Assembly: GCF_000264995.1 (NCBI RefSeq)
Contig: NW_006767447.1
Location: forward strand, 197,384-261,383
DNA length: 64,000 nucleotides
Source of the DNA: Punctularia strigosozonata HHB-11173 SS5
Taxonomy: Eukaryota > Basidiomycota > Agaricomycetes > Corticiales > Punctulariaceae
Reading direction: 5' to 3'
The position numbers and the translations under genes are program-made. The notes under the pieces are model-generated. The model had not been told where the DNA came from. It saw only the letters and a list, made by a program, of their open reading frames with translations, and ran no database searches. Below are positions 46,637 through 50,528 of the stretch, one piece after another; the first letter of the stretch is position 1, and each line of letters begins with the position of its first letter.

Positions 46637-47455
46637 TTAGTCTTTCCGGCATATAATCTCCCCGTGCGCGATGCTGAACCACCCGTCCTCGTTCTGCACC
46701 CAATCTCTCCAGGCCGCAGCGAGCCGCTCTAGGTCCTCCCGCGCGCAGTGCCCATCTCCAACGGCGATGTCTGCGTACGCTGAACCGACGGACCTGTCCG
46801 CCCACATATTGCCCCACCACTTTCTCTCATCCTGCGTGCTGAAGCACCAAGTTCCGACGGAGCACTTGATGCTGGCACGGTCGAAGCCCGCCTCCTTGGC
46901 CCAGACATGGATGTAGCTGCCTGGGTCGGGGTTCCCACCCCGCGCCTTCGCGATTCTATTGTATAGTTCCTTCCACTCGTCGAAGGCGGGCAAGCGAGGG
47001 TACCAGAGCATAGCCCCGGATTCGCGAGCGGCAACAATGCCTCCGGCCTTCGTGACGCGGCGCATCTCGCGAAGAGCTTGCACGGGATCGCGAATGTGCT
47101 GGAGGACCTGGTGGGCGTGAACAACGTCGAATGTATTGTCTGGGTACTGCAGCGCATGCACGTCGCCGGTCACGAACTCGACGTTGTTCACGCCCTCCTG
47201 GGCAGCGAGCGTGCGCGCGCCGTCGAGAGGATCGGGCGAGTATTCAACGCCGACGACGTGTCCCTGCGGGACGTGGCGAGCAAGGTCGATTGTGATGGTT
47301 CCGGGACCACATCCGACGTCGAGGATGCGGAGATCGGGTTTGAGATGGGGAACGAGATATGCGGCCGAGTTGTCGACGGTGCGCCAGCTGTGGGACCGGA
47401 TAGGAGCCGCGCTATGGTCCGAGATGTAGACACGTTCAGAGTCTACGCTAGCCAT
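46637..47455 (-). CDS. class I SAM-dependent methyltransferase
   Basis: Single exon, 272 residues. Motif I is LRILDVGCGPGTITIDLARH (residues about 42-61), post-I VVGVEYSPDPLDGA, motif II DNTFDVVHAHQVLQHIRDPV, motif III LREMRRVTKAGGIVAARESG. This is the UbiE/MenG-like subgroup of small-molecule methyltransferases, common in fungi as single-copy or cluster genes. The C-terminal third (FDEWKELYNRIAKARGGNPD, then WCFSTQDERKWWGNMWADR) probably forms the substrate lid. It has no signal peptide and is probably cytosolic. Substrate unknown. A TATA box stands about 80 bases upstream. Confidence 0.9.
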   Translation of the reverse strand: MASVDSERVYISDHSAAPIRSHSWRTVDNSAAYLVPHLKPDLRILDVGCGPGTITIDLARHVPQGHVVGVEYSPDPLDGARTLAAQEGVNNVEFVTGDVHALQYPDNTFDVVHAHQVLQHIRDPVQALREMRRVTKAGGIVAARESGAMLWYPRLPAFDEWKELYNRIAKARGGNPDPGSYIHVWAKEAGFDRASIKCSVGTWCFSTQDERKWWGNMWADRSVGSAYADIAVGDGHCAREDLERLAAAWRDWVQNEDGWFSIAHGEIICRKD

Positions 47456-47535
47456 CGGGCGTGGTAGTGAAGTCGCGTTGGGGTTGGGTGAACGAGGAAT
47501 GCTGATCAGAACTTCTAAGCCGCGGCAACATATAG

Positions 47536-47543
47536 TTTATATA
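47536..47543 (-). promoter_or_regulatory. TATA box of the methyltransferase gene
   Basis: TATATAAA on the minus strand, 80 bases before the ATG at 47455. Confidence 0.5.
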
Positions 47544-47877: not shown

Positions 47878-50528
47878 ATGCCGTTCATTAACTGGCTTCC
47901 CCAATTCTTGAGGCCTTGGCCTCACCCAGCGCTACCTGGAATGCGCCTTGCACCAGAGTCCAGCTGTGACAATCCACTTATGGTACGTTATTGTTGCCTG
48001 TATGGCTTTAATCCAGTTCTGACGTTAATACAGATACAATGTTTCACGTGGGATGCTAAGTTTGAAGGGAAAAGCTGGTGGAAACACTTGGACGACGAAA
48101 TACCTCGTCTGAAGGAGCTCGGCGTCACTCAGCTCTGGCTACCACCGGCACATAAAGCTATGCGGCCGGTGCGTCTATTTTTAGCCCACTCACTCGTCCG
48201 TGAAGAGCGCTGAACGCATTACAGGAGGGGCAGGGATACGATGCATATGATTTGGTACGGCGCCATGGCTCAACATTGTATTTACGCTCCAGGTGCTGAT
48301 GAAGATTAGTGGGATCTCGGCGAGTTCGACCAGAAAGGTGCTATCGCCACGAGGTGGGGCACGAAGGATGAGCTCCTCCAGCTTTCGGCTACCGCAAAGC
48401 TCGCTGGGATCGATCTCATACTTGATGCGATCTTGAACGTGAGATTTCTACTTGTTTCTGTGGTGTGGCTGGAAGCACGATTCATCTTAACATGTATCTT
48501 GGACAGCACAAGTTGGGAGCAGATCGGTGCGAACCGTGCTTGGCAGTCCCTGTAGACCCTAAGAATCGCATGCGAGACCTTGCACCTCCACGCGAAATCG
48601 AGGTAAGCGTTTGAAATGCTATAGCGAAAAAGCTTTCTCAACGAATCTGGCCAGGCATGGACTATTTATGAGTTTCCTGGGCGTGGAAATCAGGTACAGT
48701 TACCCTCTGGATCTCTTGTGGGTGATGCAACCTCACGATACACTTCAGTACAGCGCGATGAAATGGAATCACGCACATTTCACTGGCGTAGACTGGGATC
48801 AACGTACCAAGACGGGTGGCGTATACCGGCTCGTCAGCGATCGTCATAAAGGATGGTCGAGGAACGTCGACAACGAACTTGGCAACTATGACTATCTGCT
48901 GGGCTCTGACGTGAAATATAGGTCATTACCTAGCCGATACACTAAGACTGATTTTCGCCCTTGAAATAGATCGATCACCGGCACTCAGAGGTAATCCAGG
49001 ATCAAGAGGCGTGGGGCCGCTGGGTTCTCGAGGTACGTTCTTCCGTCACGTCGGCCCCGGGACAAGTCGCCACCCCTATTGCCTAATCCGAAGTGCTCGC
49101 GAGCTAACCCCAGATTCGTACAGACCACTGGCGCGCAAGGTTTTAGGCTTGACGCAATTAAACATATGGACAGGGTGTTCTTGAGAAACTTCGTACGTCT
49201 TTCCGTGTCCAGAATAGGAGAGCAATGGCACACTTGCTGATAGGGCATGCGATGATTTCGCGAATTGTATTCCTAGCTCAGTCGCACCCGAGACGCGAGT
49301 GGGAAATCCCGGATGTTCGCCGTCGCCGAATACTGGTCTGCTAAGTGCGTGTTTGACTCCTGGGCTCGACAAAATTGTTATATATCGGTTGTATTGTTCA
49401 TACAGTCTCAAACTTATTTTGCCGTACGTCCGCGCATTCGGAGGATTGGTGAATACTGTCACTTTCATTGAATTCTAAGTACTTATCCATGGTCTTCGAC
49501 AGACTTCGTTCTTCGACGTGCCTTTGCACGACAACTTCCATCAGGCCAGCAAGAGGGGTCCATCGTACGATCTGCGCAGAATCTTCGACAAGACCCTCGT
49601 TAAAGCTAGACCGGGAGACGCCGTCACGTTCGTGGACAACCATGAGTGAGCAATTTTACTCCATGCCGTGGATAGCCACATATCAAGCTTCGTTGCTCAT
49701 CGAGCTTTGGGTTCGTAGCACTGTACGTCTTCTGAAGTAACTTCGTCTCCCGTCCGAAGTTCCTTCAATTGACTGCTGGCGATCCCACGTTATAGCAAAT
49801 AGGACAAAGCCTCGAGAGCTGGGTAAGCGCAGTCCCCGCATCTGATCTCCGTCCGCTTCGATGAACATTCATGCTTGCGATTCCGGACTTTGTATTCCAG
49901 GTTGGTTCGAACTTCAAGCTCCAGGCCTACGCCCTCATATTGCTGAGAGCCGAAGGTCATCCGTGAGTGCATCTCGGACGCATGAGCCGCTTAGAGCACA
50001 CATTGAAACCCGTCCTTCTCCACCTTTCATGTGAACGCATGTCGTCGTGCGTACGTATTACGTTGCAGATGCGTCTTTTACGGAGACTTGTACCCCAACA
50101 AGGAGTGTTATGACCCGGAAGTCGCCCAGCCGTTAGACACGCTCATCCGAGCGAGGAAGTTGTATGCGTACGGCCCCACGCGCGACTTCTTCGACAGTCC
50201 GAACTGCATTGGTTGGGTCCGCGTGGGCGACTCCACCCGCCAAGGGAGCGGCTGCATGGTCGTCGTTAGCAATGCTCCGTGAGTTTGCCATCTCGCCCCT
50301 CTGCGTGTCACGTACGCCGCTCACTCACCACCCTGAACGTTGCCCAGCCCAAGATCGCAGCCACAAATTCTGCGTATGAATGTGGGTGATACGGCTGGCG
50401 CAGGACCGCAGCGCACATACCGGGCACTGCTAGGATCCGAGATCCCGGTCGTTACGGTGGGCGCCGATGGATGGGCAGCGTTCTCGTGCCCCCCCGGAGG
50501 CGTTCAGGTGTGGGTTCCTGAAGGATAG
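47878..50528 (+). CDS. alpha-amylase, GH13 (intracellular fungal type, GH13_5-like)
   Basis: Seventeen exons in phase give 521 residues: 47878-47982, 48034-48168, 48225-48254, 48310-48438, 48507-48602, 48655-48693, 48749-48910, 48970-49032, 49124-49192, 49277-49344, 49406-49448, 49503-49645, 49719-49722, 49796-49822, 49901-49962, 50069-50278, 50348-50528. There is no signal peptide. Barrel motifs: IQCFTWDAKFEGKSWWKHL, LGVTQLWLPPAHK, YDAYDLWDLGEFDQKG, DAILNHKLGAD, GFRLDAIKHMD (nucleophile Asp), FAVAEYWSA (acid/base Glu; Ala replaces the common Gly before it), SFFDVPLHDNFHQAS, FVDNHDTQIGQSLESW (third catalytic Asp), CVFYGDLYP. The DT of NHDTQ depends on a 4-base exon. It hydrolyses alpha-1,4-glucans, in this subgroup probably in the cytosol or linked to wall alpha-glucan. 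It converges with a sugar transporter. Confidence 0.93.
49719..49722 (+). other. predicted 4-base micro-exon of the alpha-amylase gene
   Basis: CACT lies between an acceptor (GTTCGTAG) and a strong donor (GTACGT). It joins GA of the previous exon and CAA of the next to read N-H-D-T-Q-I-G-Q, the expected GH13 motif. Both flanking introns are 73 bases long. Confidence 0.75.

Follow-up and report, generated by a model that had tools for sequence, protein, structure and literature searches.

A putative 4-base exon in the catalytic region IV motif of an alpha-amylase gene of Punctularia strigosozonata, with a counterpart in a distant paralogue

The four bases CACT at 49719-49722 of the window (the whole stretch of 64,000 nucleotides that was analysed) are, with high probability as judged from the genomic sequence, a genuine coding exon in the interior of a gene for a GH13_5-type alpha-amylase, flanked by 73-base GT-AG introns on both sides. 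The exon would complete the codon of the catalytic Asp of region IV, and a synonymous 4-base exon occupies the same place in a distant paralogue of the same genome. If real, a very small constitutive exon within an enzyme's catalytic motif has survived an old gene duplication, and the case is relevant to two questions: how the spliceosome deals with exons below the size needed for exon definition, and how these exons are maintained. Gene models that lack the four bases give an amylase that is truncated or altered at the catalytic Asp.

Gene model and the 4-base exon

We built a gene model by hand on the plus strand at 47878-50528, in which 17 exons, separated by GT-AG introns throughout, encode 521 residues followed by a single terminal stop. 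Exon 1 (47878..47982) begins at an ATG that is the model's choice. It is followed by exon 2 (48034..48168), whose introns on both sides lie at positions common to the paralogue, by the 30-base exon 3 (48225..48254) and by exon 4 (48310..48438), the 3' end of which encodes DAILN of region I. Exons 5 (48507..48602), 6 (48655..48693, again with both neighbouring introns at positions common to the paralogue), 7 (48749..48910) and 8 (48970..49032) lead to exon 9 (49124..49192), which carries region II, GFRLDAIKH, with the nucleophile Asp263. Region III, AEYW, with the acid/base Glu294, lies in exon 10 (49277..49344; acceptor CCTAG at 49276), and exons 11 (49406..49448) and 12 (49503..49645) complete the part of the gene upstream of the 4-base exon 13. 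Beyond it are exon 14 (49796..49822; 27 bases, QIGQSLESW), exon 15 (49901..49962), which is followed by a further intron at a position common to the paralogue, exon 16 (50069..50278), carrying (P)CVFYGDLYP of strand beta-8, and exon 17 (50348..50528), which ends VWVPEG-stop and whose acceptor we judge to be the least certain junction in the model. Apart from the two introns that flank the micro-exon, the remaining 14 introns measure 51-106 bases.

As long as exon 10 was read from 49282, where it is out of frame, a further micro-exon between it and exon 9 was a candidate; the acceptor CCTAG lies five bases upstream and restores the frame. This candidate was dropped because an exon 10 starting at 49277 is in frame and has the length expected from the family profile. 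Upstream of the amylase gene, on the minus strand at 46637-47536, we also noticed a 299-residue open frame with matches to methyltransferase families (PF13847, E 6.3e-32).

The predicted protein scored 556 bits against the NCBIfam alpha-amylase profile NF006969 (cut-off 382), covering profile positions 3-481 of 483. The paralogue protein scored 650.5 bits against the same cut-off, and both proteins were above cut-off for Pfam PF00128. The best relatives with a solved structure are bacterial alpha-amylases (41 matched). The catalytic triad of the window protein consists of Asp263 (region II), Glu294 (region III) and Asp361 (region IV), and the corresponding motifs of the paralogue read GFRFDAIKH, GEFW and NHD. 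Judged by its sequence, the window protein is a GH13_5-type alpha-amylase with a full-length match to its family, which takes in bacterial alpha-amylases of the liquefying type and intracellular ones of fungi; the GH13_5 label follows published usage, the family match itself having been made through NF006969.

Exon 12 ends in FVDNH followed by GA, the first two bases of the Asp361 codon (...GTG GAC AAC CAT GA|GTGAGC), and exon 14 reads CAA ATA GGA CAA AGC CTC GAG AGC TGG|GTAAGC, its first codon being Gln363. Both ends were found where the initial annotation had put them, at 49645 and 49796, and its observation that a direct join runs into a stop after one codon also holds: exon 12 joined straight to exon 14 gives NHDK-stop, 362 of 521 residues. 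Four bases reading [C/T]AC[N] are needed between the two exons. CACT, preceded by CGTAG| and followed by |GTACGT, has this form, and the features first described for it (the framing TAG and GTACGT, the product NHDTQ) are all in place. With CACT included the frame stays open and reads NH-D-T-QIGQ, the four bases contributing the third base of the Asp361 codon and the codon of Thr362. Intron 12 (49646..49718; GTGAGC...CGTAG) is in phase 2 and intron 13 (49723..49795; GTACGT...TTATAG) in phase 0. The predicted spliced product over the micro-exon is ...AACCATGACACTCAAATAGG..., and its counterpart in the paralogue is AACCATGATACGCAAGTCGG.

The Asp of region IV is described as the transition-state stabiliser of GH13 (PMC8467227), in agreement with the earlier reading of N-H-D as region IV with its catalytic Asp split over the micro-exon. 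Bacterial relatives were met in 2 of 38 stretches when genome contigs were scanned; the same scan of viral contigs gave 0 of 31 stretches. D and T of NHDT are kept in all five bacterial relatives among the matches listed (of 41), with DTQ in one and DTE in four, and in both bacterial loci compared, each reading DTQ. The sequence DTQ after NH, given in the initial annotation for this subfamily, does occur among these relatives.

A counterpart in a distant paralogue

We searched the genome of the organism with each half of the protein at E up to 0.01, counts from these searches being lower bounds, and found at least one further gene of this amylase family, on the minus strand of contig C3 (L018). 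Its hand-built model has 22 exons and 505 residues, and its protein is 47% identical to the window protein (232/492 aligned residues). The junction in the paralogue reads GA|gtgagt...tttgtag|TACG|gtatgc...gagtag|CAAGTCGGTCAG, the 4-base exon TACG lying at L018:2392-2389 between GT-AG introns of 52 and 54 bases, as compared with 73 and 73 in the window gene. The introns on either side of the micro-exon interrupt the two genes at matching codon positions and in matching phases. GAT ACG in the paralogue and GAC ACT in the window gene both encode Asp-Thr; two of the four exon bases differ, and both differences are synonymous. Altogether 7 of the 16 intron positions of the window gene are common to both genes, introns 12 and 13 included.

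A layout pattern written from these two genes found 2 matches in 33.57 Mb (32 contigs), one per gene (1 forward, 1 reverse), with no third place in the genome and 0 matches in the reversed control sequence. The intron-CACT-intron layout, looked for in homologous genes, is thus present in one homologue, this distant same-genome paralogue, where the synonymous TACG stands at the same position and in the same phase. The proposal of a true 4-base exon is supported by this counterpart, by the uniqueness of the layout and by the enumeration of parses given below.

Several further features of the paralogue were noticed. Its first intron (L018:4184-4127, minus strand) is of the GC-AG type (ATG|GCACGT...CCATAG|ATA) and lies at the position common to intron 1 of the window gene; it is the one GC-AG intron among the 33 that do not flank a micro-exon in either gene. 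The exon before its 4-base exon has 21 bases (L018:2465-2445), so that two very short exons in succession encode parts of one motif. A PF00128 family search of the same genome gave 11 matches, none of them at either GH13_5 gene, both of which were presumably missed on account of their short exons. The matches, which lie apart from the two GH13_5 genes, are on contigs C2, C4, C8, C9, C10, C13 and C24.

Alternative parses, chance and splice-site strength

For the window interval we enumerated 198 one-intron and 2,463 two-intron parses, with GT-AG, GC-AG and AT-AC introns of at least 30 bases. NHDTQ was obtained from the CACT parse only. One- and two-intron parses together left 181 that were open and in frame, and the CACT parse came first of the 181 against each of two bacterial reference peptides, with scores of 86 (next 79) and 78 (next 71). 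The paralogue interval gave 273 two-intron parses to test; 12 parses were open there, and the 4-base exon again ranked first.

We estimated how often such a site arises by chance, searching for AG|YACN|GT with at least 40 bases on each side in dinucleotide shuffles of both intervals. The motif appeared in 139 of 20,000 shuffles (0.7%) of the window interval and in 80 of 20,000 (0.4%) of the paralogue interval; it was found 0 times in the 1,986 bases that make up the remaining 33 introns of both genes. Taken as one intron, the window interval would measure 150 bases, above every other intron of the gene (14, maximum 106), and the paralogue interval 110 bases, likewise above every other intron of its gene (19, maximum 67). 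Splice sites were scored with weights built from the introns of the same two hand models, which are themselves fitted to homology; on this scale the donor after CACT has the top score among the 11 GT sites of the window interval, and in the paralogue the donor that follows TACG comes third of 7. Weak scores were obtained for the acceptor preceding CACT (3.0; 3 of the 33 other acceptors are lower) and for the one following TACG (2.4; 2 of 33 lower). A CTRAY branch site is absent from window introns 12 and 13 in the range searched, which holds CTCAT and TTGAC only; of the 33 introns elsewhere in the two genes, 19 have no CTRAY either.

The results bear on three other explanations of the interval. 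The region could be spliced along a different path, through another micro-exon or as one intron with shifted sites. CTTC at 49688-49691, giving NHDF, is the other open 4-base parse in the window and ranks second of the 181, and seven one-intron parses are open as well. The CTTC parse, however, swaps out the Thr kept in the relatives listed (5 of 41), uses a poor donor (GTTGCTCA, score -1.7) and leaves introns of 42 and 104 bases, whereas all seven open one-intron parses drop at least six residues of the motif, yielding 4 to 13 residues over the stretch as against 19 for the CACT parse; in the paralogue there are 0 open one-intron parses. We regard a different path as very improbable. Slightly less so, and still quite unlikely, is a decaying gene copy or an assembly error, with CACT restoring the frame of the model by mere coincidence. 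A plain two-exon join does produce a frameshift, but the remaining exons are open, the protein covers almost the whole of its family profile, the paralogue requires a 4-base exon at the corresponding site and possesses one, and the motif occurs in less than 1% of shuffles of either interval.

Two adjacent introns are also the appearance expected of a spliceosomal twin intron (stwintron), and stwintrons have been described in fungi. Such a unit consists of nested introns removed in two steps, with no exonic base retained between them; zero bases would end the window protein at NHDK and lose the frame in the paralogue. This reading, to which we give hardly any weight, was rejected because it breaks the frame in both genes. 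In the preferred reading, that of a 4-base coding exon, the retained bases keep both the reading frame and the conserved motif in each gene.

Predicted splicing and comparison with known genes

Both 73-base introns would be short enough for recognition across the intron (intron definition), and both must be removed to give the enzyme. Since four bases leave no room for the splicing factors of two introns simultaneously, the introns are probably removed in sequence. Once the first is out, the four bases would belong to a long exon, and the remaining intron would be spliced in the ordinary way. Intron-by-intron removal of this kind has been proposed for an Arabidopsis 1-base exon (PMC4674806).

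We followed the consequences of mis-splicing in silico. Skipping of the micro-exon gives NHDK-stop in the window gene and, in the paralogue, loss of frame with a stop at 364 of 505 residues. If intron 12, or the equivalent intron of the paralogue, is kept, either protein ends in NHE-stop, and retention of the second intron gives a stop a few residues further, again in both. With skipping or either retention the protein thus ends at the motif Asp/Glu or at most 20 residues beyond, in both genes, which argues that inclusion of the exon is obligatory for the enzyme and that it is not an optional insert. The products of failed splicing may play a role in lowering expression. The 4-base exon would be older than the duplication behind the two amylase genes of this genome.

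Fungal amylases with an altered region IV have been published. A survey of fungal amylolytic enzymes gives the region IV Asp as invariant in GH13 except in three sequences, which have Glu, Ser or Tyr; one of them is A. niger AmyD (CAK37367.1; PMC3502345), whose region IV reads HSTNID. In the same survey table Amy1 of H. capsulatum and of P. brasiliensis has NHD, and the P. brasiliensis Amy1, sequenced through cDNA, keeps the Asp (PMC3502345). A. nidulans AmyG was reported without the beta-7 region, yet the cDNA-cloned enzyme is an active amylase (PMC8592254). AmyG, AmyD and P. brasiliensis Amy1, which are intracellular enzymes of fungi, resemble the window protein in regions I-III and are filed under GH13_5; unlike it, AmyG and AmyD have a region IV that is lacking or changed (PMC8592254, PMC3502345). 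The parts of these papers that we consulted on AmyG, AmyD and Amy1 contain no mention of a micro-exon (PMC8592254, PMC3502345). The Asp reported as missing or replaced in CAK37367.1, EGN99260.1, XP_001210924.1 and AmyG is the very residue that spans the micro-exon here.

We tentatively consider, at somewhat less than even chances, that the 4-base exon is ancient and common among fungal genes of GH13_5 and that at least one of AmyG, AmyD (CAK37367.1), XP_001210924.1 and EGN99260.1, the last of which we take to be a Serpula (basidiomycete) record, is a model that misses the exon. For XP_001210924.1 and EGN99260.1 membership of GH13_5 is presumed. The Asp-to-Glu exception could be explained in this way, since NHE results in silico in both genes when the GA|GTGAG donor is read through. 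Against a missed exon in AmyG, its authors state that the clone was Sanger-verified and, in the parts consulted, report no extra bases (PMC8592254); against one in AmyD, HSTNID is not obviously produced by skipping a 4-base exon. If true, the proposal would offer a checkable explanation for published fungal amylase models without the region IV Asp.

The initial annotation placed the exon near the lower limit for spliceosomal exons. This is to be qualified, as 1-base exons have been published in plants and in Fusarium: in Arabidopsis APC11 and plant VPS55 (PMC4674806, PMC8831610), and in Fusarium CYP621A, with SRA read support, in 2026 (PMC12940212). Exons of 2-5 bases are given as known in Arabidopsis, Drosophila and humans (PMC12940212). 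For a micro-exon in a fungal amylase we found nothing in searches of an open-licence library, as judged by titles and the openings of abstracts. Among intron-dense genes of basidiomycetes, the Phanerochaete P450 genes have a shortest exon of 6 bases and introns often of 45-55 bases (PMC1184071), and the bglA genes of basidiomycetous yeasts a shortest exon of 5 bases, mean introns of 59-81 bases and occasional GC-AG introns (PMC9142197). Both resemble the window gene in being intron-dense, with mostly short introns and several tiny exons; they differ from it in not being alpha-amylase genes and in their shortest exons, 6 and 5 bases as against 4 (PMC1184071, PMC9142197).

APC11 and VPS55 share with the present case an ultra-short coding exon that annotation missed; they differ in being other genes, of plants, with proof from RT-PCR and RNA-seq, whereas the exon here is read from sequence (PMC4674806, PMC8831610). 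The argument made for CYP621A is like ours, built on misfitting phases, an intron of double length and a conserved motif (PMC12940212). That exon is of 1 base, in another enzyme family, and is kept among 20 orthologues (PMC12940212), whereas the exon described here is of 4 bases and is known from the genes alone of two distant paralogues. Very small exons are thus already known, and the one proposed here is a further case, distinguished by its conservation across an old duplication.
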